From: Nitrosomonadales bacterium
Lineage (GTDB): Bacteria > Pseudomonadota > Gammaproteobacteria > Burkholderiales > Gallionellaceae
Assembly: GCA_016223025.1 (NCBI GenBank)
Contig: JACRPU010000039.1
Coordinates: forward strand, 1 to 36,206
DNA: 36,206 nucleotides
Reading direction: 5' to 3'
Part shown: positions 1 to 14,642 of the stretch, one piece after another
How the letters are laid out: each line of letters starts with the position of its first letter
Position numbering within the stretch: the first letter of the stretch is position 1
The notes under the pieces: generated by a model
What the model was told of the DNA's origin: nothing
Databases searched by the model: none
What the model saw: the letters and a program-made list of their open reading frames with translations, nothing else
Translations under genes and position numbers: made by a program

Positions 1-1243
1 GCATCACGAAATTCCCCGACTTCGGGTTGCAGGCGTCTCGCACGCGAAGTCCGATAAATCGGATGCGCAGCCACTGCCCGAAAAGCCCCGCCGTGATCAG
101 CGCCCCCTTGCGCCACGGCGCGATCTCCATCAACGGGAAGGATTCCCACAACTTCAGGGCGAGCAATTGCGTCAGGGCATACGCCGTGGAACGAATCTGC
201 ATCCACAACTCCAGCGCCGCTTTCGATTGCTGCCACAGGTTCGCCACACCCCACCACCGCTTCAGGTTGTGAAACAACGGCTCGATCCCCCAGCGCTCCG
301 CGTAGATTTCCACCACGGCTTTCGCGATCAGTTCCGTTTCGGTCGCCAGGATCAGGCGCGGGCGCGACCAGGTGTTGTCGTCCTGGCGCATCTCGCACCA
401 CACCGCCCGCACCGGCACCCCCTTCAGGAACCGCGCCACAGCGACGACCGAGCGCAGCCTGACCATCTGCATCTTGCCGTACAGCATCAGTTCCATCTCC
501 TGTGCCGGCAGTGTATCCAGCATGGCCGCATCGATCCTCAGCCCGTATTTGCGCTTCGGCCCCCGGCGCTTCGGTTCCGGCTCCGGCGGCAGATACAAAG
601 CGGTATCCCGCCGCACCTGCCCGATGATGCGCACCTTCTGGTCGAGCAAGGGCAGAATCAAACTCTTGCGCATGAACCATGCGTCGATCAGCAAGCGCGC
701 TTCCTTGACGTACACCCTGACCGAGCCGATCAACTGCCGCGCCACCCAGAGCTTGCCGCGCTGGCCGGATTCCTCGACCAGCCAGGAGCGGAGCGGCACC
801 GTCAGCGCCGACCCCATCCTGACACGCACGACCAGCGCCAGCGTGACCCAGCACTGGCTGTTCAGGAAGGTGGGCCGGTTGGCACGGCGAGCGTGGTCGT
901 GTTTGACGCTGATGCCCGGCCCCGTCTTCGCGCAACGCGGCACCAGCGTATCGTCGATGATCAGGTTCACCAGTTCGCCGGGGCACACCTTTTGCACCAA
1001 TTGCAGCAGACGGACGGACAGGTCGGCGACCGGTACATGCGCCCGCTCGATCAGCTTGTAATAGGTGGTCCAGTGCGCCTCGCGGCTGATGGCGCCGATG
1101 GCGCGGGTGACCCATCCTTCCGGGTTGAGCATGCAGCCGATCAGGAGTTCGACAAATGTCCGGCGGGAGCGTGGCGGAACGGCCAGCAGAAGAAAGGAAA
1201 TCCATTCCGAGAGCAGCAGGCAAGCTTGGGCGGCGAGCGACAT
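1..1243 (-). CDS. IS4-superfamily DDE transposase, 3' end cut by window edge
   Basis: Reading the minus strand from ATG at 1243 gives 414 uninterrupted codons running off the left edge. The protein starts MSLAAQACLLLSEW. It carries the three acidic residues of a DDE transposase: D97 in NLIIDDTLVPR, D187 in LLIDAWF, and E321 inside YAERWGIEPLFHNLK. That last segment fits the IS4-superfamily signature Y-(2)-R-(3)-E-(6)-K exactly (Y314, R317, E321, K328). The start follows an in-frame TGA about 30 bases upstream, so 1243 is the first usable ATG. The gene appears intact as far as it is visible and would cut and paste its own element. The IS ends were not located because the other end is outside the window. 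It lies co-directional with and about 200 bases past the cheA stop. IS4-superfamily membership is confident; the exact IS family is not. Confidence 0.85.
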   Translation of the reverse strand, partial: MSLAAQACLLLSEWISFLLLAVPPRSRRTFVELLIGCMLNPEGWVTRAIGAISREAHWTTYYKLIERAHVPVADLSVRLLQLVQKVCPGELVNLIIDDTLVPRCAKTGPGISVKHDHARRANRPTFLNSQCWVTLALVVRVRMGSALTVPLRSWLVEESGQRGKLWVARQLIGSVRVYVKEARLLIDAWFMRKSLILPLLDQKVRIIGQVRRDTALYLPPEPEPKRRGPKRKYGLRIDAAMLDTLPAQEMELMLYGKMQMVRLRSVVAVARFLKGVPVRAVWCEMRQDDNTWSRPRLILATETELIAKAVVEIYAERWGIEPLFHNLKRWWGVANLWQQSKAALELWMQIRSTAYALTQLLALKLWESFPLMEIAPWRKGALITAGLFGQWLRIRFIGLRVRDACNPKSGNFVM

Positions 1244-1446: not shown

Positions 1447-3639
1447 CTACGAAGCCAGCAACTGCGTTTCCTGGTTCACCGCGCGCTGGATCAGCGCCGG
1501 CACGTCCAGGATCAAGGCCACCTCGCCGCTGCCGAGGATGGTCGAGCCGCTGATCCCTTTGAGGTTGCCGAACAGTTTGCCCAGCGGCTTGATCACGGCC
1601 TGGAATTCGCCCATCAGTTCGTCCACCACCAGCCCCGCCTTCTGCCCGGCGTATTGCACGACCACGATGTTTTCGCGCCGCCCCGCCTTGCCCCGTTCGC
1701 GGAAGCGGTCGCGCAGGCGGATGAACGGCAGCACCGTGCCGCGCAGGTTGATGTAATGGCTTTCGCGGATTTCCCGGCGTTCCGCCTCGCCAAGCTCGAT
1801 GCACTCCATCACCAGGTCGAGCGGCACCACGTAAGAGGCGCTGCCCACCCCCATCAGGAAGCCGTCAATAATCGCCAAAGTCAGCGGCAGGCGGATTTTC
1901 ACCGTCGTGCCGGCGCCTTCGCGGCTGGCGATTTCCACCGTGCCGCGCAAGGCCTCGATGTTGCGCCGCACCACGTCCATGCCGACACCGCGCCCGGACA
2001 AATTGGTGACCGCCTCGGCGGTGGAAAACCCCGCCTCGAAAATCAGGCCGTACACTTCCTGGTCGGAGAGCGTCTGGCTGGCCGTGATCAGCCCTTTTTC
2101 CAGCGCCTTGGCAAAAATCTTTTCGCGGTTCAGGCCGCCGCCGTCGTCGCCCACCTCCACCACGATGCTGCCGGATTCGTGATAGGCGTTGAGATGCACC
2201 GTGCCTTTCGCCGGCTTGCCGCGCTTCATGCGGGTTTCGGCCTTCTCGATGCCGTGATCCATGCTGTTGCGCACCAGATGCATCAGCGGGTCGCCGATTT
2301 TTTCCACCACCGACTTGTCCAGCTCGGTTTCCGCGCCGCTGATCGCCAGCCCGATGTCCTTGCCGAGCTCTTTGCTCACATCGCGCACCACGCGGTTGAA
2401 GCGGTTGAAGGTTTCGCCGATCTGCACCATGCGCAATTGCAGGGCGCTGTCGCGGATTTCCTCGACCAGCCGCGACAGCGTGGAAGTCGCTTCGTGCAGC
2501 GCCGGGTCGCGGTTGCGTTGCGCCAGCAGGCTGGTGGCGGCGCCGGCGATGACCATTTCCCCGACCAGGTTGATGAGTTGGTCGAGCTTGTCGGCCTGGA
2601 TGCGGATCAGTTTGCTTTCCTGAACCTTGTGTTCCCTGGCGAGCTTCTGTTTCCCGAGCGCCGCATCCACCAGCTCCGGCGGCACCACGCCCTGTTCCAC
2701 CAGGATGTCGCCGAGCATGGGCGCGGCTTCCTGGCCGCATCCGGCGCGCAGCGTCTCCTGCACGCGCAGCGCTTCGTCCAGTTCCTTCCGTGTCAGCGAG
2801 CCGCATTCGACCAGCAGTTCGCCGAGGCGGATCTTGTCCTCCGGCAAACCGGCGATAAACTGGATGTATTCCTCGATGCGGCTGTGCGGCGGCAGGATGC
2901 GCAGCGTACAGTCGTCGCGCACAAACTCGAACACCCCTTCGATCGCGGCTTTGTCCACGTTGTCGCCGCAGAAATCAATCTCGAACCCCAGATAGCAGCT
3001 TTCCGGATCCATTTCCGGGGAGGGTGGCATGGCATCGGGCAGGGTGATGACATGGGTGATTTCCCCCATGTTGCCGAGATAGCGGATGAAGGCCAGCGGG
3101 TCCATGCCGTTGCGCAGCACGTCCTGGCCGAAACGCAGCGAGATGTGCCAGTGGCCGCTTTCCACCGCGCCGCCCGGCTGCGGCAACACGGTTGCCTGAG
3201 GTCGGGAAGGCGCAGCCGCAGGAACCAGCGGACGCTCTTGCACGCCGGCCTGGTAGGCCTTGAGCTGGTTGAGCAGCATGATGCCGGTGGCTTCTGTCTC
3301 CTTGTCCGGCCGGGCGGCAGAGCCGGCGGCAACCTGCTCCACCAGCATCCCGATATGGTCGCGGCAGGACAACAGCAGGGCGATCAGTTCGCCGTTCACT
3401 GCCGCTTCGCCGGCGCGCACCCGATCCAGCACGTTTTCCACCACATGGGTGAATGCCACGATGCCATCCAGCCCGAACAGCCCGCCCGACCCCTTGATGG
3501 TGTGGGCGGCACGGAAGATGGCGTTGATCGCATCGGGATCATCCGGCGCGGATTCCAGGCCCAGCAGCGATTCCTCCATGGCTTCGAGCAGCTCGCGGCT
3601 CTCCATGAGGAAGGTTTGCAGTGCCTGATCGAGTTCCAT
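1447..3639 (-). CDS. cheA: Chemotaxis histidine kinase CheA with MshEN-like motifs
   Basis: The 730-residue protein phosphorylates CheY in response to receptor arrays at the membrane. Domains in order: HPt with H46 in AAHTIKG (1-105); a ferredoxin-like middle region (163-250); two 24-residue MshEN-like motifs at 271-294 and 308-331; dimerisation helices (about 342-400); a kinase domain with N box HLVRNSMDHGIE (454-465), DDGGGLN (498-504) and GRGVGMDVV (549-557); and a CheW-like C-terminus (about 590-725). ATG 3639 was chosen over the TTG at 3663 because the protein then begins MELDQALQTF, typical of CheA, and the HPt domain follows at once. It is the last visible gene of a minus-strand chemosensory cluster, after the STAS gene with a 99-base gap. 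CheA itself is certain; c-di-GMP binding is a hypothesis. Confidence 0.95.
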   Translation of the reverse strand: MELDQALQTFLMESRELLEAMEESLLGLESAPDDPDAINAIFRAAHTIKGSGGLFGLDGIVAFTHVVENVLDRVRAGEAAVNGELIALLLSCRDHIGMLVEQVAAGSAARPDKETEATGIMLLNQLKAYQAGVQERPLVPAAAPSRPQATVLPQPGGAVESGHWHISLRFGQDVLRNGMDPLAFIRYLGNMGEITHVITLPDAMPPSPEMDPESCYLGFEIDFCGDNVDKAAIEGVFEFVRDDCTLRILPPHSRIEEYIQFIAGLPEDKIRLGELLVECGSLTRKELDEALRVQETLRAGCGQEAAPMLGDILVEQGVVPPELVDAALGKQKLAREHKVQESKLIRIQADKLDQLINLVGEMVIAGAATSLLAQRNRDPALHEATSTLSRLVEEIRDSALQLRMVQIGETFNRFNRVVRDVSKELGKDIGLAISGAETELDKSVVEKIGDPLMHLVRNSMDHGIEKAETRMKRGKPAKGTVHLNAYHESGSIVVEVGDDGGGLNREKIFAKALEKGLITASQTLSDQEVYGLIFEAGFSTAEAVTNLSGRGVGMDVVRRNIEALRGTVEIASREGAGTTVKIRLPLTLAIIDGFLMGVGSASYVVPLDLVMECIELGEAERREIRESHYINLRGTVLPFIRLRDRFRERGKAGRRENIVVVQYAGQKAGLVVDELMGEFQAVIKPLGKLFGNLKGISGSTILGSGEVALILDVPALIQRAVNQETQLLAS

Positions 3640-3738: not shown

Positions 3739-4062
3739 CTAATGGCCGTGGCGCGGCATCATCACCGGGTCGCCAAAATAGTGGGCCATGTTGAACAAAT
3801 CCAGCACTTCCAGCGTTGCCGGGCTGTGCGCCACCAGGCGCAACCGCTTGCCGGCGTTGGCCGCCTCGCGCTTGGCCAGCAACAGCAACTGGAAGCCCGC
3901 AGTATCCATCTCGCTGACTTCGGACAGATTGATCTCCAGTTCCGTGCAGCGATCCAGGCAGGAAAGCAATTCCCCCTTCATTCCGGCGGCATGGTAAATC
4001 GTCATTTCGCCAGCCACGCGGGCCTGGCATACGCCATTGCCGGTTTCGATGCTGATCGTCAT
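3739..4062 (-). CDS. STAS-domain protein of chemosensory cluster
   Basis: This 107-residue protein is one STAS domain (anti-sigma-factor-antagonist or MlaB-like fold). The characteristic segment is SEVSEMDTAGFQLLLLAKRE, where the residue phosphorylated in SpoIIAA-type proteins would be the Thr of D-T-A-G. Such single-domain STAS proteins occur in some chemosensory clusters as switchable binding partners, but no partner kinase of the SpoIIAB type is visible here. It starts 12 bases after the cheY stop and precedes cheA, so the three are probably co-transcribed. The fold is clear; the role is not known. Confidence 0.85.
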   Translation of the reverse strand: MTISIETGNGVCQARVAGEMTIYHAAGMKGELLSCLDRCTELEINLSEVSEMDTAGFQLLLLAKREAANAGKRLRLVAHSPATLEVLDLFNMAHYFGDPVMMPRHGH

Positions 4063-4074
4063 GATGTCCCCCGA

Positions 4075-4443
4075 CTACGGCATCACCAGCTTCGATACCG
4101 CCGCCAGCATTTGCGCGGGCTGGAACGGCTTGACCACCCATGCCTTCGCGCCCGCTGCCTGGCCTTCCTGTTTTTTCCCTTCCTGCGACTCGGTGGTCAG
4201 CATGATGACGGGGGTGAACTTGTAGGCCGGCATCTGTTTGAGGTTCTTCACGAAGGTGATGCCGTCCATGTTGGGCATGTTCACGTCGCTGATGACGAGA
4301 TGCACCTTCTGCCCGTTCAGCTTGGCCAGCGCATCCTTGCCGTCGCACCCCTCGATCACGTCGTAGCCGGCGCCGCGCAGCGCGATGCCGACCACCTGCC
4401 GCAGCGAAGCGGAGTCATCCACGATCATGATGGTTTTGGCCAT
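4075..4443 (-). CDS. cheY: CheY-like single-domain response regulator
   Basis: This 122-residue receiver has no output domain. It shows the acidic pocket D9/D10, phospho-acceptor D53 in ISDVNMPNMDG, the switch Thr at T83/T84 in LTTES, and K105 before Pro in VVKPF. This is the CheY pattern, and it should accept phosphate from the CheA encoded two genes downstream. It lies 12 bases after the methyl-accepting gene and 12 bases before the STAS gene, a tight operon arrangement. Whether it acts on flagellar motors, pili or another target cannot be told from the window. Confidence 0.92.
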   Translation of the reverse strand: MAKTIMIVDDSASLRQVVGIALRGAGYDVIEGCDGKDALAKLNGQKVHLVISDVNMPNMDGITFVKNLKQMPAYKFTPVIMLTTESQEGKKQEGQAAGAKAWVVKPFQPAQMLAAVSKLVMP

Positions 4444-4455
4444 GCCGTTCTCCCG

Positions 4456-5706
4456 CTAGAAAAAGGTGATTTCCATCGCGCCGGGCGTGGCGGGCGATGC
4501 CGCGCCCGCCTTGTCATCGCGGTGGTTGCGCCGCTGCTCGGCGGTGGTGTAGCCCAGCGCCATTTCATCCAGCCAGGCGCCGGCGTCAATTTCCGGCGCG
4601 CTTCCGCCGCTGCGTTCGGCGGCATATTGCCGGAGGCGGGCGTGCAGCCCGTCGAGGTTGTCGCGCACGTGGGCCAGTATCTGGCTGACCCGATCCTGAA
4701 ACTGGAGGTACACCAGCATCTCGGAGATTTCTGCGCGGATACCCTCGCTCTCGCGCCGCAGCATCCCGGAAGATTCGCTCAACCTGCCGGCAACTTCCCG
4801 GAAATTGTCCAGCACCCGGTGGATGGTTTGCTCCGCCTCCGCCGCCTGGCGCGCATCTTCCTCGCCGAATTTTTCTGTGCCGGCGATGACCGCCGAGATC
4901 GCCTGGTTGATGACGCCGGCCTTCTCCGCCATTTTTCTGCCGGTGTCGCTGGACAGGTTGGACAGCTTGCGCACTTCGTCCGCCACCACCGCAAAGCCGC
5001 GCCCGGTCTCGCCGGCGCGCGCCGCCTCGATGGCCGCGTTGAGCGCCAGCAAATTGGTCTGCGAAGCAATCTCTTCCACATCCGCAGCCATCTTTTTCAG
5101 GTCGGCGGTATAAGCGATCAGTTTGCGCACGTCCTGCACCATCGCCGCGCGCTCGTGCCGCGCCGCGTCCATCGAGCGGTTGACGGCGACCAGATCGGCC
5201 TCGCTGCGCGACAGCACCGCCACCGCGCAGCCGTCTTCCGTTCCGTCCCCGCCGCCCGCCGCCCGCTGCGAAGCGGCTGCCGATGCCTGCAAGCGTTCGA
5301 CGATGGCGGCGAAGCGCGCCGCCACCCCGGTAACGCCTTCCTCGGTCTGGCTGCGCGCGGTTTCGATCTGTTTTGCCCAGATCGGCGCCGCCTTGTCGCA
5401 GACCTGCTCCAGGCCGGCGACGCCGCTTTGTTGCCGCAATGTTTGCCTGGCCTGCCCCAGCAAATCCTCTGCCTGCCGTGTCAGTTGCTCCAGCGCGGCG
5501 CGCTGCCGCACCGCGCTGGCCCAGGCGCATAACGTGGCAAACCCCGCCACCGCAAGAGCGAACTGCACTCCCGCGCCGCCCGGCCCGGAGCCCCCGAACA
5601 AGGACACCCCCAGCAGCGCGGCTACCCCGGCGCCGCCGCTTGCCAGCGGCGACATCCACAGCCAGGCGTCCGCGTTTGCCCGCATCGTCATTTCCCCTTG
5701 GCTCAT
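4456..5706 (-). CDS. Methyl-accepting chemotaxis protein without sensor domain
   Basis: The 416-residue protein begins with two hydrophobic segments (about 18-38 and 47-65) joined by only about ten residues, so there is no periplasmic ligand domain and no recognisable HAMP. The rest is a cytoplasmic coiled coil with the MCP tip [20 protein letters not shown] followed by [19 protein letters not shown]. Signals would have to come from the membrane, the cytoplasm or a partner protein. The C-terminal stretch [14 protein letters not shown] is common in receptors that work with dedicated CheA proteins. The start could instead be ATG 5685, which has the better Shine-Dalgarno (AAGGGG, 8 bases upstream); ATG 5706 is the longest form. 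It lies upstream of cheY with a 12-base gap. Confidence 0.9.
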
Positions 5707-6389: not shown

Positions 6390-7019
6390 TCACACCAGCC
6401 GCTTCCCGACGGCGTACTGCATCAGCTCGGCGTTGTTGCGCAGGTTCATTTTTTCCAGGATGCGGGCGCGGTAGGTGCTGACGGTTTTTCCGCTCAGGCT
6501 CAGGGAATCGGCAATTTCCGTGACGGTTTTTGCTGCGGCCAGCAGCCGGAAAATCTGGTATTCGCGGTTCGACAGGGTCTCGTGCGGAAGCTTTCCTTCC
6601 GGTCTGCCGAGTTCGTTGGCAAGCATTTCGAGCACCGCCGGACTGAAGAATTTTTTTCCGCTCGCCGCTTCGCGCACCGCCTCCACCACGACCGGCGACG
6701 CGCACCCCTTGGTCAGATAACCGGCGGCTCCCGCCTTGATGAGGCGCACGGCATACTGGTCTTCCGTGTAATTGCTGAGAATCAGTACCGGCAATTTCGG
6801 TTTTTCCTCGTGAATCTGCTTGAGCACCTCGATCCCGTTCCGCCCCGGCATGGAAATGTCGAGCAGCACCACGTCGCAATCGTTGCGCCGAAGCCAATGC
6901 AGCGCGTCAATGCCGTTGTCCTGCTCCGCCACGACCTCCATCCCCTGGGTTTTCTCGAAGATCCGCCGCAAGCCGTGGCGCACCAGGTCGTGATCGTCAA
7001 CAATCAGGATGCGTATCAT
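6390..7019 (-). CDS. NarL/LuxR-family response regulator
   Basis: This 209-residue regulator has an N-terminal receiver (D8/D9, phospho-acceptor D54 in VVLLDISMPGRNG, K104 in GYLTKG) and a C-terminal LuxR-type helix-turn-helix (about 146-205: LSNREYQIFRLLAAAKTVTE through GKTVSTYRARILEKMNLRN). It is closest in style to NarL/UvrY-type activators. The start ATG overlaps the end of the upstream kinase gene by 23 bases, so the two are translationally coupled and form a two-component pair. Targets are not known. A 238-base gap follows before the stand-alone receiver gene. Confidence 0.93.
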   Translation of the reverse strand: MIRILIVDDHDLVRHGLRRIFEKTQGMEVVAEQDNGIDALHWLRRNDCDVVLLDISMPGRNGIEVLKQIHEEKPKLPVLILSNYTEDQYAVRLIKAGAAGYLTKGCASPVVVEAVREAASGKKFFSPAVLEMLANELGRPEGKLPHETLSNREYQIFRLLAAAKTVTEIADSLSLSGKTVSTYRARILEKMNLRNNAELMQYAVGKRLV

Positions 7020-9747
7020 GTTCTGCTTCTCCTTTCTGATGCACGCAACAAAGCAGCGGCAATATTACCGTCACGCTGAAGCCCCCTGCGGGCGGGCTGT
7101 AGAAATGGATCCTGCCGCCCAGTTGCTCGGCGCGCTCGCGCATGCCGAGCAGGCCGTAAGAAGTCGGGGCGATGGTGTGCCCTTCCGGCAGCCCGCGGCC
7201 ATTGTCGGCGATTGCCAGAACGATCTCCCCCTCCTCGCAGCGCAATTCGATTTCCACCCGCGATGCGCCGGAATGCCGCGCGACATTGGTGAGGGATTCC
7301 TGGAGAATGCGGAACAGGGCGATCGTCTGCGTCCTGTCCAGATCATCCTTGCAGCCGCCGGTGCAGAGGCTGGAAACGCAGCACTGGATGCCGGTGCGCT
7401 TCTGGAACTGCCCGGCCTGCCATTCCAGCGCCGCCTGCAGGCCGAGATCGTCGAGTATGGTCGGGCGCAGCTCGGTGATGACGCGCCGCATGACCCCCAC
7501 CGCATCATCGAGCAGATGCGACATCGCCCCGATGCGTTCGAGCAGCGGCGCCGCCTCCCGGTTCGCGGACAGCTCGTCCGCCAGCCAGTACACGTCCATT
7601 TTGAGCGCGGTCAGCGTGCCGCCCATGTTATCGTGGATTTCCCGCGCAACGCTGGCCTTTTCCTCTTCGCGCACGATCTGGAGGTGCGCGGACAGATCGT
7701 GCAACTGTTGCTCCACCAGTTTGCGCCCGCTGATGTCCTCGATCACCCCGATGGTGTATTTGGGAATCCCTTCGGCGTCGCGCAGCAGGGAAACGGTCAG
7801 GTTGGTCCATACCGGGCTCCCGTCCTTGCGCACGCAGCGTTTTTCAATGGAATAGGTGGAGATTTCACCCGCCAGCAGTTGCAGGTGGCGCCGCAGGTTC
7901 TTGTCCCGGTCGTCGGGGAAAATGATGTCCTGGAAATTCATCGGGATCAGCTCGTCGCGGTCGTAGCCGACGATTTCGCAGAACTTCCGGTTGACCTGCC
8001 GGAATTGTCCGTCCAGCGCGGCATGCACGATGCCGACCGCCGCCTGCTCCAGAGTGCCTCGGAAGCGTTCCTCGCTTTCCCGCAACCGGGCTTCTTCCAT
8101 CCGCTTGCGCACGGTGATGTCGCGCAGGAAGGCGGCAAATTGCCGCGTTTCATGCATGAAGGTAACGGAAACCTCGATGTCAATTTCATGCCCGTCCTTG
8201 TGGCGGTGGCGGGTCTCGAAGCGGTCGGAGCCGTGCGCGATGATCTTTTCGATATGCGCCTTGGTATCGCCGGGTTTCTCTTTGGCTTCCAGTTGGCTGA
8301 TATGCATCTGCGTCAGCTCTTCCACGGAATAGCCGGAGAAGCCTGCATAGGCCTGGTTGGCCGTCAGCAGGTTGCCCGCCTCGTCGGCTATCCAGAAACC
8401 ATCCATCGCGGTGTCAATCACCCCCTTGTGCAACTGCAGCGCCGCTTCCGTTTCCCGATGGGCGCGCTCCAGATCGCAGCCGCGCTCCTTCACCCGCTGT
8501 TCCAGTTCCGCGTTGGCCCGGCGGATATCCTCTTCCCGCTGCGACAGCCTGGCCAGCATGATGTCGAATGCGTTGGCGAGCCTGCCGATTTCGCCGATGC
8601 CGTTCTGCGGCAGCGCCACGTCGCGGCCGCCCGCCGCGATGGTGTCGGCGGCGGACGCGATCCGTTCGAGCGGGGCAAAGACCCGGCGCAGGACGAGCAG
8701 GCCGACCCCGCCGACCAGCAGCAGCACCAGGAACCCGGCGGTGATGCTGCCGGCCGGAACTGCGGCGATCTGCTGCGCCGCCACTGCGCCCGGCAAGTGG
8801 TACGCGAAGAGCAGGAAGCGCGCCGGATCATCCGGGTCAAAATGGACTCGTTCGGCGGCCAGATAGTGTTTTGGCTCTCTTGCCGCGACCGCCTGGAAAG
8901 GGAAATGTTCCGTCGCGCGCGGATCGAATATCGCCTTGAGAAAAGGAAAGTCAGAGGTGATGTCGCCTTTGCCGCCCGGCTCAAACTCGAAACGCCTCCG
9001 TTCATCCGGATGGAGCAGATATTGCCCGCTCGCGTTCGCCACATAAGCCAGAACGCCGGGCGGCAGGTCCAGTGCGACGGGTTCCAGCAATCCGATCGCG
9101 TCCATATTGATCACCACCATGCCGAAAATCTGTCCGGAAGGCGCAAAGACCGGCGTGGCCGCACGCAATGTCGGACGATATGGCCGCTCTATGGCGCCGC
9201 GTTCCTGGTTGAGATTGAATTCCGAGAGATGCACCTGACCGGCGCGCAGCCCCAGCGTGGCTTTGAAATAATCGCGGTCGGCCTTGGCTTGCAGCACGGC
9301 AGGCGGCGCCACCTCGATCTTTCCTCCGCGATTGTCCACCCGCACGATCTCGCGCCCGCCGTCTGCCACTCCGATGTAGCGCAAGCTGGCGTAATCCGGG
9401 TTCGCGGCCAGGAAGGACGAAAAAATCTGTAGCAGGCGCGCTTCCCATATCTCGCGGGTATCGCCGTCGCGGGCGCCATGCCCCCGATTCGGCACGGCGC
9501 GCATGATGCCGGAAACGGGGGGAGTTCCGGACAGGAACAGCACGTTCTGGCGCAGGTGGGTGATATCGCGGTTCAGCCGCAGCTTCTGGTACTGGAGTTC
9601 CCCTTCCAGGTTGACGCGCTGGCCGCGCAGGTACGCGTCGCGCAGGCGCGCGTCTTCGATGAACAATAACGTCGTGGCGCCCGCAGCCACAAAGGCTATG
9701 GCGATAAAGGCGATGCGCGTGGACAGGCGGAAGTCTGACAGTTTCAT
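6997..9747 (-). CDS. Membrane PAS/HAMP sensor histidine kinase (NarX/DegS type)
   Basis: The 916-residue kinase has a first membrane helix (about 11-30), a periplasmic dCache-like sensor region (31-325), a second helix (about 331-353), HAMP (354-405), a coiled coil, two PAS domains (about 440-550 and 560-680), a HisKA_3 segment with H705 in AREIHDNMGGTLTALKMDVY, and an HATPase domain with ADNGRGLPEG (847-856) and SYGLLGMRERAEQLGG. HisKA_3 kinases pair with NarL-type regulators, and the next gene is one, overlapping by 23 bases. ATG 9747 was chosen over 9825 because the protein then starts MKLSDFRLSTR directly before the helix; the extra 26 residues come from a repeat. The signal sensed is unknown. 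Confidence 0.92.
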   Translation of the reverse strand: MKLSDFRLSTRIAFIAIAFVAAGATTLLFIEDARLRDAYLRGQRVNLEGELQYQKLRLNRDITHLRQNVLFLSGTPPVSGIMRAVPNRGHGARDGDTREIWEARLLQIFSSFLAANPDYASLRYIGVADGGREIVRVDNRGGKIEVAPPAVLQAKADRDYFKATLGLRAGQVHLSEFNLNQERGAIERPYRPTLRAATPVFAPSGQIFGMVVINMDAIGLLEPVALDLPPGVLAYVANASGQYLLHPDERRRFEFEPGGKGDITSDFPFLKAIFDPRATEHFPFQAVAAREPKHYLAAERVHFDPDDPARFLLFAYHLPGAVAAQQIAAVPAGSITAGFLVLLLVGGVGLLVLRRVFAPLERIASAADTIAAGGRDVALPQNGIGEIGRLANAFDIMLARLSQREEDIRRANAELEQRVKERGCDLERAHRETEAALQLHKGVIDTAMDGFWIADEAGNLLTANQAYAGFSGYSVEELTQMHISQLEAKEKPGDTKAHIEKIIAHGSDRFETRHRHKDGHEIDIEVSVTFMHETRQFAAFLRDITVRKRMEEARLRESEERFRGTLEQAAVGIVHAALDGQFRQVNRKFCEIVGYDRDELIPMNFQDIIFPDDRDKNLRRHLQLLAGEISTYSIEKRCVRKDGSPVWTNLTVSLLRDAEGIPKYTIGVIEDISGRKLVEQQLHDLSAHLQIVREEEKASVAREIHDNMGGTLTALKMDVYWLADELSANREAAPLLERIGAMSHLLDDAVGVMRRVITELRPTILDDLGLQAALEWQAGQFQKRTGIQCCVSSLCTGGCKDDLDRTQTIALFRILQESLTNVARHSGASRVEIELRCEEGEIVLAIADNGRGLPEGHTIAPTSYGLLGMRERAEQLGGRIHFYSPPAGGFSVTVILPLLCCVHQKGEAEHDTHPDC

Positions 9748-9814
9748 AAAAGTGTTTCCAAGCCGGACGAGCCGGAACCAAAATTGGGAAGCCGTCTTTT
9801 CGTAGTTTTCTCGT

Positions 9815-10081
9815 AGGTTGGGCAAAGCGGAGCGTGCCCAACATTAGATACCGAAAAACTTTTTTCCGGGCACCCGAATGATCCTAAAAACCTCAATTCA
9901 AGCCACAGAGAACACAGAGGTCACAGAGAAATCAGCGGTACGACACGTTTTTATGGCACACCAAAAAGGTGAATCAATTTCTTGGTTCAACCGTTTGTTT
10001 TTACTCTGTGTTCTCTGTGGCTGACAGAGTTTTTAAGGATGATGCTTTCGCTTGTTGTGTACGCTCCGCTTTGCCCAACCT
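9815..10081. repeat. 267-bp nested inverted repeat
   Basis: The outer arms 9815-9835 and 10061-10081 are perfect 21-base reverse complements (aggttgggcaaagcggagcg and partner). Inside, 9901-9919 and 10004-10022 are perfect 19-base reverse complements built on ccacagagaacacagag. Between the two sets, atcctaaaaa near 9891 and tttttaaggat near 10030 also pair roughly. The layout resembles a MITE-like or palindromic repeat element without coding capacity. Confidence 0.85.
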
Positions 10082-10094
10082 TCAACAAGTTTGT

Positions 10095-10136
10095 GCGAAC
10101 GGCCACCGATTGTAAATCGGCAAGCTATCCGTTCGC
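10095..10136. repeat. Double hairpin downstream of mltA
   Basis: gcgaacgg (10095-10102) pairs with ccgttcgc (10129-10136), and inside it ccgat (10106-10110) pairs with atcgg (10116-10120). No T-run follows on either strand, so a Rho-independent terminator is unlikely. The inner arm resembles a tRNA-Tyr anticodon arm, but no other tRNA part is present. Confidence 0.6.
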
Positions 10137-10185
10137 GCCGAGACTCGAAGCATGGGCGGTTAATTTTCAGAAGTGCCCATCTATC

Positions 10186-11385
10186 TCAATAGGTCAGCGC
10201 CGGTTCCCCGCCTTTGGGAAACAGCACCCACATCCTCCCCTGCTGCTTCATTTTTCCCGCCTGTTCTGCGGCCGCCGCGCCAAAGCCCCAGAAGAAATCC
10301 GCGCGCACCGCGCCCTTGATGGCGCCGCCGGTATCCTGCGCCAGCATCAGGCGGTTGAGCGGCGCGCTGTCGTTGGGGTAGGTGGTGGCGAGAAATACCG
10401 GCGCGCCCAGCGGGATGGTGCGCGGGTCCACCGCCAGGCTGTATTCGCCGGTGAGCGGCACGCCCAGCGCGCCCAGCGGCGCGGCCAGGCCGCCGGGCAA
10501 TTCGCGGAAGAACACGTAGCTGGGGTTTTGCGCCAGCAGCGCGGCAAGCTTGGCCGGATGCCGTTCGGCCCATGCCTTGATGCCCTGCATGGAGGCTTCT
10601 TCCAGCTTGAGCTCGCCCGTTTCCACCAGTTTCCTGCCGACGGACACATATGGGTGGCCGTTCTGGTCGGCATAACCGACCTTTATCAGGCTTCCATCGG
10701 GCAACTCGATCCGTCCCGAGCCCTGGATTTGCAGGAAGAACAGTTCCACCGCGCTGTCAACCCAGAACAGTTCGCGCCCCCTGAGCGAATTATTCCCGCC
10801 ATCAATTTCGGCGCGGCTGTAATAGGGCACCACGCGCTTGCCTTGCAGGCGCCCGCGCAGGCGCAAATCCTTGAGCTGCGGATAGGCTTCGCCCAGATCA
10901 ATTTGCAGCAGGTCATCCGGCGCGGCATACAGCGGGTAGCGGAAGCGGGCGTTCCGGGCGCGGCTGCCGTAGAGCCTGGGCTCGTAATAGCCGGTGATCG
11001 TGCCCCGGTCGCTGCCGTCGGGGTTGAATACCTGATAGGGAGTAAACCATTCTTCGTAAAATGCGCGCAGCGAAGCGCTGTCACTCGCACCCGGTTGCCC
11101 GGCACCCAGGTTTTCGGCGCCGGCGCACGCCGCCTGCCAGTGCGGTTTGGCTTTCAGCACCCGGCAGCTTTGCAGGAGCGCCGGCCAGGACGGCGCAAGA
11201 TCGAGCGCCTGCCAGCCCGGCAGCATTTCCCATTTGCTCACCGCGAACACGGGAGCGGGCAGCGCCACGGCAGGCGGCATCACGGCAGGAGGCGGCGCGA
11301 TGGGCGGCTTGGGCGGCGCGGCGCAGGCGGCGAGCAACGCGCACCACATCCAGGCCAGCCATTTGTTATTTCTTTCCGGCGTCAC
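10186..11385 (-). CDS. mltA: Membrane-bound lytic murein transglycosylase A
   Basis: The 399-residue lipoprotein cleaves peptidoglycan glycan strands from the outer membrane, giving 1,6-anhydro-MurNAc ends. The N-terminus has a lipobox (LLAACAAP), then a proline-rich linker, the MltA domain with GTITGYYEPRL and FFLQIQGSGRIEL, and the 3D region with VDPRTIPLGAPVF and AQDTGGAIKGAVRADFFWG; D351 of this last motif matches the catalytic aspartate. It starts at GTG 11385 with GGAAGAAGC just upstream, and overlaps the stop of the methyltransferase gene by four bases (GTGA), so expression is coupled. Length and motifs fit a full enzyme. Together with amgK-murU nearby it points to active wall turnover and recycling. 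Confidence 0.95.
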   Translation of the reverse strand: MTPERNNKWLAWMWCALLAACAAPPKPPIAPPPAVMPPAVALPAPVFAVSKWEMLPGWQALDLAPSWPALLQSCRVLKAKPHWQAACAGAENLGAGQPGASDSASLRAFYEEWFTPYQVFNPDGSDRGTITGYYEPRLYGSRARNARFRYPLYAAPDDLLQIDLGEAYPQLKDLRLRGRLQGKRVVPYYSRAEIDGGNNSLRGRELFWVDSAVELFFLQIQGSGRIELPDGSLIKVGYADQNGHPYVSVGRKLVETGELKLEEASMQGIKAWAERHPAKLAALLAQNPSYVFFRELPGGLAAPLGALGVPLTGEYSLAVDPRTIPLGAPVFLATTYPNDSAPLNRLMLAQDTGGAIKGAVRADFFWGFGAAAAEQAGKMKQQGRMWVLFPKGGEPALTY

Positions 11386-11987
11386 GCTTCTTCCTTCTGC
11401 AACTCGATCAAACGGAACCAGCCGCGCGCCAGCGCGGGCTGATCCGACAGCACGCGCAATTCCGGCACGTTCTCCAGCACGTCTTCAAACACCACGTCCA
11501 GCCGGGTTGCCAGCCGCCCGGCCAGCGGGCTCAGGCAGCGCCGCAACCAGGCGCGTTGCCCGCGCCGCAGGAACTTGTCGAGCAGCAGGATGCGCCCGCC
11601 CGGTCTGAGCACCCGCGCCGATTCGGCCAGACATTGCTGCGGTTGCGGCACCACGGCGAGAATCAGGTGCAACACCACGAAGTCGAAACTGTGCGCGGCA
11701 AACGGCAAAGCCATGCTGTCGCCCAGCACCATCCGCATTTGCAGCCCGCGCATTCTGGGTTTTGCCCGCGCCAGCATCGCGCCGGTCAAGTCCAGCGCGG
11801 TGTACTCGTGGCACGGCGGCAAAAAGGGAAAATCCAGCCCGGTTCCCGCGCCGTCGAGCAAAACCCGCACAGCGCCCTGTTGCGGCAACTGCGCCAGGCT
11901 GCGCCGCCTGATACCGGCGGCAACGCCGCTGTCAATAACGGCATCATAAATCGGCGCGATGAAGCGGTAGCTGGTTTTTAGCGACAT
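11382..11987 (-). CDS. Class I SAM-dependent methyltransferase
   Basis: The 201-residue protein has motif I VRVLLDGAGTGLDFPFLP (about 41-58), ALDLTGAML, GDSMALPFAAHSFDFVVLHL and a post-III ARVLRPGGRILLLDKF, typical of UbiE-like Methyltransf_11 proteins. The substrate is not evident; the start MSLKTSYRFIAPIYD resembles enzymes of the quinone or lipid methyltransferase type. ATG 11987 was chosen because the in-frame extension upstream to 12215 runs through dispersed repeats. It overlaps mltA by four bases. In relatives ksgA often follows pdxA; this protein is not KsgA, as its motifs and length differ. Confidence 0.85.
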   Translation of the reverse strand: MSLKTSYRFIAPIYDAVIDSGVAAGIRRRSLAQLPQQGAVRVLLDGAGTGLDFPFLPPCHEYTALDLTGAMLARAKPRMRGLQMRMVLGDSMALPFAAHSFDFVVLHLILAVVPQPQQCLAESARVLRPGGRILLLDKFLRRGQRAWLRRCLSPLAGRLATRLDVVFEDVLENVPELRVLSDQPALARGWFRLIELQKEEA

Positions 11988-12095
11988 GCCATCAATGCGG
12001 TAACCGGTGTCGCCGGCCGGATATTTTTCCCGTGATACAACCCGCTCTCCGCGCAAGCCGCATCGAAGTAAAAAAACCGTTTGTGGCGAGATTGT

Positions 12096-12176
12096 CGAAG
12101 ACGGCTTCCCATTTTTAACGTGAAACTCGCGTAACGAGGGCCTCGCCCTCTCTCCCTCCAGAGAGTAGAGTGAGGG
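12096..12176. repeat. Dispersed repeats between pdxA and methyltransferase
   Basis: Bases 12096-12116 are an inverted copy of the aaaatgggaagccgtctt repeat seen at 9780 and 3671. Directly abutting, 12117-12176 hold a second family: aacgtgaaactcgcgtaacg, then gagggcctcgccctc and tctctccctccagagagtag, which form small hairpins, ending tgaggg. A close copy lies at 27474-27536 and a partial one at 35824-35849. The 291-base gap 11988-12278 otherwise shows no gene. Confidence 0.8.
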
Positions 12177-12278
12177 AAAACGAGGCCAAAGGCCGAAGTT
12201 TCGAGGAACGGCCAACGGTCAGGGCGCAGACGGTTCATCATTCGGGGTGGCCTGCGCCATGTGCGTCAGGTTCATGCT

Positions 12279-13274
12279 TCACGAAGCCATGCGCTCGCAT
12301 CGAGCCATATCCGCCGCCACCCGGATCGCTTCCAGCAGGCTGCCCGCGTCGGCATTGCCGGTTCCGGCCAGCTCCAGCGCCGTGCCGTGATCTACCGAGG
12401 TGCGGATGATGGGCAGGCCCAGCGTCACGTTCACGCCGTGGCCGAAGCTGGCGTGCTTGAGCACCGGCAGGCCCTGGTCGTGGTACATCGCCAGCACGCA
12501 GTCGCACTGCGCCAGGCGCTTCGGCGTGAACAGGGTGTCGGCGGGCAGCGGCGCACTGACGTCCAATCCTTGCGCGCGCAGGCTGTCCAGCAGCGGAACC
12601 ATGATGTCAATTTCCTCGCGCCCCAGGTAGCCGCCTTCGCCCGCATGAGGGTTCAGGCCCGCCACCAGGATGCGCGGGTGCGCAATTCCGAAGCGCCGCA
12701 TGAGGTCGCGCCGAATAATGCGCAGCACGCTTTCCAGCAATTCGGCGGAAATCGCGTCCGGCACTTCGCGCAGGGCAAGATGGGTGGTGGCCAGCGCCAC
12801 CCGCATCCCGCCGCCTGCCAGCATCATCACCACCTGCGAGGCGTGCGTCCGTCCGGCAAGGAATTCGGTATGCCCGGTGAACGGGATGCCCGCATCGTTG
12901 ATGATGCCCTTGTGAACCGGTGCGGTGACCATGCCGGCAAATTCGCCGGACAGGCAGCCTTGCGCAGCGCGGCCCAGCAGTTCGAGCACGTAAGGGCTGT
13001 TGGCGGGATTCAGTTTGCCGGGCCGCGCCGGTCGAGCCAGCGGCACATGCAGCACGCGCAGATGTCCGTGCGGCGGAGAAGCGGTTTGCTGCGGGATGTA
13101 ATCATGCAGCATCACGTCCAGGCCGAGCAGCGCGGCGCGCTGCCGCAGCAAGCCCCTGTCGGCAAGCACGACCAACGGTTGTTCCGGCGCTTGCTGCGCC
13201 AGTTGCAAACAGAGATCGGGGCCGATGCCGGCGGGCTCGCCGGAAGTGACCGCCAATACGGGTGCGATTCCCAT
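12279..13274 (-). CDS. pdxA: 4-hydroxythreonine-4-phosphate dehydrogenase
   Basis: The 331-residue enzyme oxidises 4-phosphohydroxy-L-threonine in the DXP-dependent pyridoxal phosphate pathway, in the cytoplasm. It opens with [15 protein letters not shown], and carries the three metal-ligand histidines H165 ([11 protein letters not shown]), H210 ([10 protein letters not shown]) and H265 ([12 protein letters not shown]), almost the same numbers as in E. coli Pdx[19 protein letters not shown] and [13 protein letters not shown] are also present. Length is normal. It follows surA by 24 bases on the same strand, the usual lptD-surA-pdxA order. Downstream the expected ksgA is absent. Confidence 0.97.
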
Positions 13275-13298
13275 GCGTGCGAAATAAAGCGCGCGCCG

Positions 13299-14642
13299 TT
13301 ACGGTTTGCCTGCCGCGCCGATGCGGTATTCGACGTAGGCGCGGTCGCGCAACTGGCGCAGCCAGTCCTGATAGGCTTCATCCGACTTGAAGCCGCGTAT
13401 CGCCATGCGCGCCTGCATCTTTTTCTGCTCGGCGCTCACGTCGGCGTTGCGGCGTTCCAGCACCTGGATCAGGTGCCAGCCGAAGCCGGAATGCACCGCG
13501 CTGCTTACCTGCCCGTCCCGCAGGGCGTTTATCGCCTCTTCGAATTCGGGTACGGTTTCGCCCGGCGAAATCCAGCCCAGATCGCCGCCGTGCATGGCGC
13601 TGCCGTCCTCCGAATAGCGTTTGGCCTGCTCGGCAAAATCGGCGCCCGCTTCCACGATGTTCTGCCTGATTTCCAGCAGGCGGCTTCTGGCATCGCTCTC
13701 CGGCATGATCTCGCTGGTCTTGATCAGAATGTGCCGGACACGGGTTTGCTTGAGCATCACCGGGACATCCTTGCTGCGCCGCTCGGCCAGCTTGAGGATA
13801 TGAAAGCCGTTGGGGCTGCGCAGCACCGGGCTGATCTCGCCGGGGCGCATTTTTTGCAGCGCATCCAGAAACAGGGCGGGAACGCGGTCGGCCGGGCGCC
13901 AGCCCATATTGCCGCCTTGCAGCGCATCCTTGGCATCGGAAGATCCGGCCGCCACCTGCGCGAATTCCGCGCCGCCCTGCAACTGGGATAACGCCTGTTC
14001 GATGCGCTGGCGGCTGGCCTGGATTTTCTCGGCGCCGGCCTGTTCCGGCACCAGCACCAGGATGTGCGACAGCCGGTATTCGTCGCCCTTGCCGGGCAAC
14101 CTGGACTGGGTGGCAAGATAATTGTCCACCTCGCTGTCGCCGACCACCAGCTTGCTGTCCACCTCGCGCTCGCGCAGGCGGGAGGCGACGATTTCGCCGC
14201 GGATTTCCTCGCGGAATTTTCCGAAGTCCACGCCCTCTTCTTCCAGCTTGGCGCGGAAATCTGCCAGCGAGGGAAAGTTGTTCTCCTGTGCGATGCGCTG
14301 CAGCGACTTGTCCAGTTGCGTGTCATCCACGCGCACCCCGGTTTCCCTGGCAAACTGCGATTGCAGCCTATCCACGATCATGCGTTCCAGAAGCTGTTTT
14401 TCCAGCACTTCCGGCGCGGGCAGCGGCGTGCCCTGTTTTTGCAACTGCCGCACTACCAGGTCGAGCCGGATATCCAGTTCGAGGCGGGTAATCACGTCGT
14501 CGTTTACCACCGCGATGATCCGGTCAATCGGCACGACCTGTTTTTGCGGGTCGGGTTTCTTTTGCCCGGCCGCGGCGCCGGCGCTTGCCGGGCAGGCCAG
14601 CAGCAGCAACAGGAACATCCACTGCGGTTTGGTTGGCAACAT
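13299..14642 (-). CDS. surA: Periplasmic chaperone and peptidyl-prolyl isomerase SurA
   Basis: A 447-residue periplasmic chaperone for outer-membrane proteins, including LptD. It has a signal peptide (WMFLLLLLACPASAGA), a SurA_N domain (IDRIIAVVNDDVITRLEL onward), then two parvulin-type PPIase domains: one around YRLSHILVLVP to GFHILKLAER and one around TRVRHILIKTS to GWHLIQVLERR. ATG 14642 was chosen because AAAGGT lies at good spacing upstream and the signal peptide follows directly; ATG 14669 in the same frame would add nine residues. It is 42 bases downstream of lptD, its main client's gene. Confidence 0.96.
   Translation of the reverse strand: MLPTKPQWMFLLLLLACPASAGAAAGQKKPDPQKQVVPIDRIIAVVNDDVITRLELDIRLDLVVRQLQKQGTPLPAPEVLEKQLLERMIVDRLQSQFARETGVRVDDTQLDKSLQRIAQENNFPSLADFRAKLEEEGVDFGKFREEIRGEIVASRLREREVDSKLVVGDSEVDNYLATQSRLPGKGDEYRLSHILVLVPEQAGAEKIQASRQRIEQALSQLQGGAEFAQVAAGSSDAKDALQGGNMGWRPADRVPALFLDALQKMRPGEISPVLRSPNGFHILKLAERRSKDVPVMLKQTRVRHILIKTSEIMPESDARSRLLEIRQNIVEAGADFAEQAKRYSEDGSAMHGGDLGWISPGETVPEFEEAINALRDGQVSSAVHSGFGWHLIQVLERRNADVSAEQKKMQARMAIRGFKSDEAYQDWLRQLRDRAYVEYRIGAAGKP

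Follow-up and report, generated by a model that had tools for sequence, protein, structure and literature searches.

The stretch of DNA analysed here (the window; 36,206 nucleotides, contig JACRPU010000039.1 of assembly GCA_016223025.1, from a Nitrosomonadales bacterium of the Gallionellaceae) carries a gene for a CheA-type histidine kinase on the minus strand (1447..3639), next to a gene for a STAS-domain protein. The translation runs from an ATG at 3639 to a stop at 1447 and comprises 730 residues. Pfam matches and a structure model place P1 (Hpt) at residues 6–103, P3 (H-kinase_dim) at residues 343–401, P4 (HATPase_c) at residues 450–587, and P5/CheW (CheW) at residues 593–719, with all four Pfam models scoring above cut-off. 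The Pfam P2 (CheY-binding) model gives no match in the CheA; residues ~160–250 (2890..3162, minus strand) are predicted by the structure model to adopt a ferredoxin-like fold instead, and are referred to as the P2-like domain. Between the P2-like domain and P3 lie residues 271–331, which we assign to MshEN_N, the N-terminal, ligand-binding half of the MshEN domain that binds cyclic di-GMP (c-di-GMP) in MshE-type ATPases. The assignment is strongly supported, because profile searches, predicted fold and residue-level conservation agree that two motifs in this segment make up one complete MshEN_N domain.

Motif I spans residues 271–294 (2758..2829, minus strand), with R271, L272, G273, L287, L291 and Q294 at the contact positions, and motif II spans residues 308–331 (2647..2718, minus strand), with M308, L309, G310, V324, L328 and Q331 at the corresponding positions. 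A spacer of 13 residues (residues 295–307; 2719..2757, minus strand) separates them. An earlier, sequence-only reading of the window had proposed the two motifs and the linker at exactly these residues, and the translation bears the coordinates out. Its further statement that both follow the 24-residue MshE pattern is also borne out, apart from a few departures. Compared with the consensus RLGxx(LVI)(LVI)xxG(LVI)(LVI)xxxxLxxxLxxQ, for which contact roles have been defined in MshE (PMC5013675), motif I is recognisable and keeps all contact positions, its sole departure being Ser at position 11, where a hydrophobic residue is expected; motif II is also recognisable, with Met for Arg at position 1, and with Val at position 17, the Leu being shifted to position 16. 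The sequence-only reading had noted Met at position 1 of motif II and had overlooked Val17. Gly3, hydrophobic residues at positions 2, 17 and 21, and Gln24 are present in both motifs.

Profile searches connect this segment with MshEN-type proteins. The NCBIfam model NF053729 ('cyclic di-GMP-binding, MshE-related'; cut-off 38 bits) matches a 92-residue fragment of the CheA in two stretches with 44.2 bits (expectation value, E, 1.2e-11), scores 36.9 bits (E 2.2e-9), just below cut-off, on the full-length protein, and matches 19 of 19 aligned CheA relatives at E ≤ 1e-3. A phmmer search with the window fragment alone against PDB sequences gives 14 matches, led by PilF at E 5.6e-10; matches 2–12 (E 0.0045 to 0.23) are PilF, PilB or MshE, and the final two are mannitol phosphotransferase system chains. 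Furthermore, a profile built from the linkers of 19 CheAs (alignment A1) yields 18 matches among the sequences of solved structures, of which the 14 that rank highest (E 3.6e-17 to 0.3) belong to PilF, PilB or MshE and the remaining four have E 1.1 to 1.9. Searched with the same profile, the window genome yields its own MshE-type ATPase, matched over the motifs with E 1.9e-6; across the class, many other ATPase-sized open reading frames (ORFs) match as well. Two off-target candidates, FumaraseC_C (0.007) and DUF4388, fall short of the cut-off in the window fragment and were rejected, since the fold and profile searches favour MshEN; DUF4388 also weakly matches six of the 19 relatives (best E 6.6e-4).

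The predicted fold is consistent with the profile searches. Two models, an AlphaFold model of residues 244–346 (model 1; predicted local distance difference test, pLDDT, 69) and an AlphaFold2 model of residues 160–405 built with 83 sequences (model 2; mean pLDDT 90.2), were compared with solved structures, and the fold match is read from the VIA-align rows for both. For model 1, the seven best rows are MshE and PilF-GSPIIB with bound c-di-GMP (Z 6.9–8.2), the best five having Z 8.1–8.2 and root-mean-square deviations (rmsd) of 1.4–1.9 Å over 57–59 residues; the first unrelated row has Z 4.9, and the non-binding GSPII-A of PilF has Z 3.2. For model 2, four PilF-GSPIIB entries have Z 8.6–8.9 and rmsd 1.4–1.5 Å, with 42–46% identity over 57 residues. 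In model 2, residues 272–279, 284–301, 309–315 and 321–343 form the MshEN_N helices, and the structural check proposed with the sequence-only reading, a comparison with MshE bound to c-di-GMP, returned an MshEN_N-like four-helix bundle (model 1, 1.9 Å over 59 residues of MshE). Specifically, the fourth helix, alpha4 (residues 321–343; 2611..2679, minus strand), leaves the MshEN bundle and ends five residues before the first helix of P3 (residues 349–375).

The MshEN_N-bearing CheA belongs to a large family. In a set of 60 close genomes that contains the window's, 22 match CheA residues 160–345. The 23 places matched are 19 CheAs carrying both motifs, three CheAs lacking them (L024, L025 and L027), and one pilus-ATPase-like ORF. 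In the class, 28 of the 370 genomes, a count made from the table that includes the window genome, have CheA-sized matches with E under 1e-20, and 13 of 397 genomes across the phylum match at E ≤ 1e-12. A single scan with the P2-like domain plus the MshEN region found 271 relatives, and both motifs are present in all 80 that were kept. The family occurs among Gallionella, Thauera, Azoarcus, Dechloromonas, Rhizobacter, Aquabacterium, Zobellella and Rheinheimera, and also in records labelled Nitrospira, Deferribacteres and Deltaproteobacteria (labels as recorded; many are metagenome bins). Dechloromonas hankyongensis and an Azoarcus sp. are individual members. The loci were chosen by similarity to motif-containing queries, so these counts give no estimate of the motif-bearing fraction of CheAs, and the collections of loci overlap (for example, L006 and L070).

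Removal of the pilus-ATPase-like ORF (L026) from 132 loci left 131 aligned CheAs, 127 of which keep both motifs, so that the insert recurs among CheA homologues as the sequence-only reading had proposed to survey. For conservation scoring, L024, L025, L027 and L056 were removed, leaving 127 CheAs, and a filter at 85% removed 24 near-identical rows, leaving 103; a second alignment (A2) drew on 85 candidates, with L055 and L133 excluded. Within the 103 CheAs, motif I has Gly3, Leu6 and Gln24 in 103, Leu21 in 102, and Leu17 in 100, while motif II has Gln24 in 103, Gly3 in 102, Val17 in 93 (the others having Ile, Leu or Met), and Leu, Val or Ile at position 21 in 88, the other 15 having Ala. The mean entropy of contact positions 2, 3, 17, 21 and 24 is 0.22 in motif I and 0.71 in motif II, compared with 1.63 and 1.69 for the respective non-contact positions and 3.34 for the spacer; position 1, a contact in MshE, is excluded from these means. 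The contacts are intact in 126 of 127 CheAs for motif I and, with Ala permitted at position 21, in 124 of 127 for motif II. Arg occupies position 1 of motif I in 93 of the 127. The spacer is hypervariable in sequence and ranges from 5 to 24 residues, being exactly 5 residues in four CheAs. This pattern is the one expected if a ligand site has been retained, and not if the segment were a spacer.

Further CheAs of the wider family deserve mention. L056 has half motifs, and genome G056 carries an intact copy (L021) together with a degenerate one (L027). The P1, P2-like and MshEN half of L057 resembles the family, and its P3–P5 core clusters with L149, the other CheA of the window genome, in a quick tree (Shimodaira–Hasegawa-like approximate likelihood ratio test, 93); the apparent domain swap points to a sensor half able to move as one block.

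Several observations weigh against a c-di-GMP-binding MshEN_N domain in this CheA. In the searches, Pfam PF05157 (MshEN) gives no match to the CheA up to E 10 and is likewise missing from the Pfam results for the 19 family members scanned. The relaxed regular expression of Wang et al. 2016, which is a survey pattern from the paper's Methods and not a domain definition, matches neither window motif (owing to Ser11 in motif I and Met1 in motif II), and finds nothing in 49 of the 127 family CheAs, with at least one match in 78 and two in 12. In the fold comparisons, the top row for model 2, with Z 9.1 and rmsd 5.3, is an unrelated ribosomal chain aligned to the P2-like domain, MshE is absent among the best 50 rows listed for that model, and Foldseek alone, run with the 246-residue model, gives no match at E ≤ 0.001, its rows being ferredoxin-like and ribosomal chains. 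The fold tool also cautions that Z below ~13 can reflect a common helical-bundle arrangement, and the fold result counts mainly because it is consistent with the sequence result. In the family, position 1 is variable (entropy 1.53 in motif I and 2.51 in motif II), Arg1 of motif II is missing in 111 of 127 CheAs, Gly10 of motif II is kept in just 48 of 127, Ala stands at position 21 in the 15 CheAs counted above, and the window spacer has 13 residues compared with 5 in MshE. L024, L025 and L027, with lost or degenerate motifs, nest inside the motif-bearing group in the quick tree (in which L148, L150 and L152 are long branches), indicating that MshEN_N is dispensable in some lineages. Finally, GSPII-A of PilF is described as having the fold without binding, and in a GSPII-A construct with both last-position Gln residues restored, Ser for Arg at position 1 of motif II abolishes binding (PMC12002112), so position 1 can matter.

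PF05157 is silent on the CheA because the model covers MshEN_C, the C-terminal subdomain downstream of the motifs, which the CheA does not have. In the window genome's own MshE-type ATPase (L001), PF05157 matches C8:14352-14615, the CheA-derived profile matches immediately before it (C8:14181-14351), and the protein sequence has both motifs just before the PF05157 match. The Pfam family named MshEN corresponds to the MshEN_C subdomain, and a missing Pfam match does not equal missing c-di-GMP motifs. The sequence-only reading had counted a missing MshEN profile match as a refutation; for Pfam such a match is indeed missing, though for this technical reason, and NF053729 exceeds its cut-off on the fragment.

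The alternative that survives best holds that the CheAs possess a true MshEN_N fold that has lost c-di-GMP binding and instead provides a rigid spacer or a docking module for CheY, the STAS protein or a neighbouring array unit. XpsE (PMC5013675) and PilF GSPII-A (PMC12002112) keep the fold after loss of binding, XpsE likewise being without Arg1 of motif II (PMC5013675), and the missing Arg1 and Gly10 (111 and 79 of 127 CheAs, respectively) and the three motif-less CheAs fit the same picture. However, the account of XpsE in PMC5013675 lists other changes, at Gly3 of both motifs, at Leu21 of motif I, and at position 17, position 21 and Gln24 of motif II, and the counterparts of these residues are mostly kept in the 103 CheAs: both motifs retain Gly3 and Gln24 in no fewer than 102, motif I retains Leu21 in 102, and motif II has a hydrophobic residue at position 17 in all 103 and Leu, Val or Ile rather than Ala at position 21 in 88. 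Moreover, an invariant Gln24 at the helix ends would be unneeded in a mere spacer, and Ser, the residue reported to abolish binding (PMC12002112), occurs at position 1 of either motif in none of the 127 CheAs. We thus regard a non-binding fold as unlikely.

Published binding data bear directly on position 1 of motif II, which in the 127 CheAs is most often Pro (53), Gln (22), Arg (16), Lys (12) or Leu (12). The sequence-only reading suggested that Met at this position may weaken binding, and precedent does not support this. PilF GSPII-B, with Leu at position 1 of motif II, binds c-di-GMP with a dissociation constant (KD) of 6 nM; placing Arg there raises the KD to 23 nM, and Leu at the equivalent position of motif I gives a KD of 2 nM (PMC11731258). 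GSPII-C, with Pro at position 1 of motif II, binds at ~0.5 µM, and the PilF domains are reported to tolerate, at position 1, Lys in motif I and either Leu or Pro in motif II (PMC11731258). For Met and Gln at this position of motif II, no test was found in the literature searched; by analogy, Met308 is probably harmless. An isolated MshEN_N has been reported to bind c-di-GMP at 0.35 µM (PMC5013675), and on the strength of these comparisons the window CheA probably binds c-di-GMP.

A domain whose ligand is another nucleotide or dinucleotide, such as cyclic GMP-AMP (cGAMP), is a far less probable alternative. MshEN of Vibrio cholerae is reported to bind cGAMP weakly (KD 0.33 mM; PMC5013675), and the side-chain changes in motif II could alter specificity. 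Against this, MshEN recognises guanine through backbone amides, those of Gly3 and of the residue that follows it, Gly3 is kept in both motifs, MshE is reported not to bind c-di-AMP, GTP and other nucleotides tried (PMC5013675), and the window genome has 19 GGDEF matches. A chance likeness of amphipathic helices in a CheA linker, to which the failure of the 2016 regular expression on both window motifs and the silence of Pfam might point, was rejected as wholly improbable in view of the curated profile (NF053729, E 1.2e-11), the solved-structure search (best 14 of 18 matches MshEN-type), the 1.4 Å superposition, and the contacts conserved in 127 CheAs.

We therefore favour, with a probability of roughly two in three, a CheA with a built-in MshEN_N c-di-GMP receptor at the hinge between P2 and P3, whose ligand tunes the CheY/STAS output. 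MshEN_N, without MshEN_C, would be inserted at the P2–P3 hinge in the CheA of a conserved accessory chemosensory system. By analogy with homologues, one c-di-GMP per CheA subunit would bridge motifs I and II, with an affinity in the nanomolar to low-micromolar range. The ligand may then stiffen or re-orient the bundle and, since alpha4 ends five residues before the P3 helix, may change, through alpha4 and P3, the position of the P1/P2 arm relative to the dimerisation and ATP-binding core. The changed geometry would tune phosphorylation of CheY and, through CheY, the STAS-dependent output. In PilF GSPII-B the ligand is reported to unwind a helical turn, with re-orientation of the subdomains (PMC11731258), which is a reasonable model for the CheA; yet the re-orientation there involves the C-terminal subdomain, which is missing here. 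As to sign, bound c-di-GMP could restrain P1 and lower autophosphorylation, a direction that we put forward as doubtful. The wider proposal, that an accessory CheA family widespread in Betaproteobacteria, Gammaproteobacteria and records labelled Nitrospira, Deferribacteres and Deltaproteobacteria has a c-di-GMP receptor at the P2–P3 hinge, through which the messenger gates CheY/STAS output allosterically with no adaptor protein, is one toward which the evidence tips slightly.

Comparison with known systems shows what is shared and what differs. The MshEN_N of MshE (Vibrio cholerae, PDB 5htl) has the same tandem 24-residue motifs, four-helix bundle, Gly3, hydrophobic residue at position 17, Leu21 and Gln24. 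In contrast, the window CheA has a spacer of 13 rather than 5 residues, Met1 and Val17 in motif II, and no MshEN_C or ATPase, and its domain sits between the P2-like domain and P3 of a histidine kinase. For PilF (Thermus thermophilus; PDB 6f8l, 8pdk for GSPII-C/GSPII-B), the top-ranking sequence match (E 3.6e-17 over the whole chain) scores highest within GSPII-C, which shares in motif II Pro1, the commonest residue in the CheA relatives, and, as read from the alignment, Val17; GSPII-B supplies the best MshEN-type rows for model 2 and also has a non-Arg residue at position 1. PilF differs in being part of a type IV pilus ATPase, and its GSPII-C spacer has 7 residues, again read from the alignment. 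NfrB of E. coli, a glycosyltransferase–MshEN protein, provides a reported precedent for an MshEN that is active outside ATPases and passes c-di-GMP to an enzyme, the effector enzyme being a different one (PMC8669469), and the NfrB NCBIfam model matches 11 of the 19 CheA relatives.

The pairing itself is known. A single clause in the Results of Wang et al. 2016 reports MshEN associated with CheA, that is, the same two domains in one protein (PMC5013675). Their stated regular expression matches 78 of the 127 CheAs at least once, though not that of the window, so the CheAs they listed may well include members of this family; what is described here is the architecture, the family, the contact conservation and the gene context. 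No experimental or functional study of an MshEN-bearing CheA was found in the titles and abstract openings of the open-licence literature. If the proposal is true, direct binding of the messenger by the kinase would couple the c-di-GMP and chemotaxis networks at their core enzyme. The links between the two that were found in the literature searched run through a receptor, as reported for Cbp1, or through an adaptor, as described for MapZ with CheR1 (PMC12564702).

Upstream of cheA, and likewise on the minus strand, lie genes for a STAS-domain protein of the anti-sigma-factor-antagonist type (3739..4062; Pfam STAS_2 9.3e-16, STAS 7.8e-12), which is directly adjacent, a CheY-type receiver (4075..4443; Pfam Response_reg 7.4e-27), and a methyl-accepting-chemotaxis-type protein (MCP) of 416 residues (4456..5706; Pfam MCPsignal 2e-25). 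Further upstream of the che genes, a Pfam scan identifies a LuxR-type response regulator (6390-7019, minus strand) and a PAS/HAMP sensor histidine kinase (6997-9825, minus strand). Directly downstream of cheA, a DDE transposase gene (2-1243, minus strand; DDE_5, DDE_Tnp_1) occupies the contig end.

Synteny was assessed by tblastn in 33 two-flank loci of the 80, the 47 loci shorter than 18,000 bases being excluded. In all 33, a STAS gene is immediately upstream of the CheA gene on the same strand, with the STAS match ending 9–539 bases from CheA (≤300 in 31 of 33), and CheY is also found in all 33. Two separate receptor genes are present in 30, both receptor queries matching one place in the other three, and CheW is found in 32, CheB in 30, CheR in 29 and CheD in 27. 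The order is somewhat variable, MCP-CheY-STAS-CheA-MCP-CheW-CheR-CheD-CheB being typical, and the window has the same upstream genes (MCP, CheY, STAS). The rest of the window che cluster probably lies on a 6-kb contig (L157) of the window genome, where CheR is identified by profile and CheW, CheD and CheB ORFs are recognised by eye. Because a STAS gene neighbours cheA, the context argues for a non-flagellar output. Stage-1 F7 clusters are likewise described as combining CheY, CheA, CheW, CheR, CheD, CheB, receptors and an anti-sigma factor antagonist, and their reported order, antagonist-cheY-cheA-two cheW (PMC7184735), differs from the typical cheY-STAS-cheA-MCP-cheW here.

The window CheA cluster represents an additional system, since the window genome has two other CheA-type matches on contig 27, as well as a weaker, below-cut-off match in a 1507-residue frame. 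The 19 GGDEF matches of this genome suggest that it is able to make c-di-GMP. Across the family, an ORF with a GGDEF/GGEEF motif is found in just 6 of the 33 flanking regions, and the c-di-GMP pool is for that reason probably global. On contig 27 of the window genome (G000; 8166-13925), two CheA-type dimerisation domains have a GGDEF match between them, a possible c-di-GMP-making chemosensory system. A protein of 247 residues is encoded just before the CheR gene in four of the 33 two-flank loci (for example, L058 12204-12944 and L059 9911-10651), which we presume to resemble the diiron oxygen-binding proteins of chemotaxis operons.

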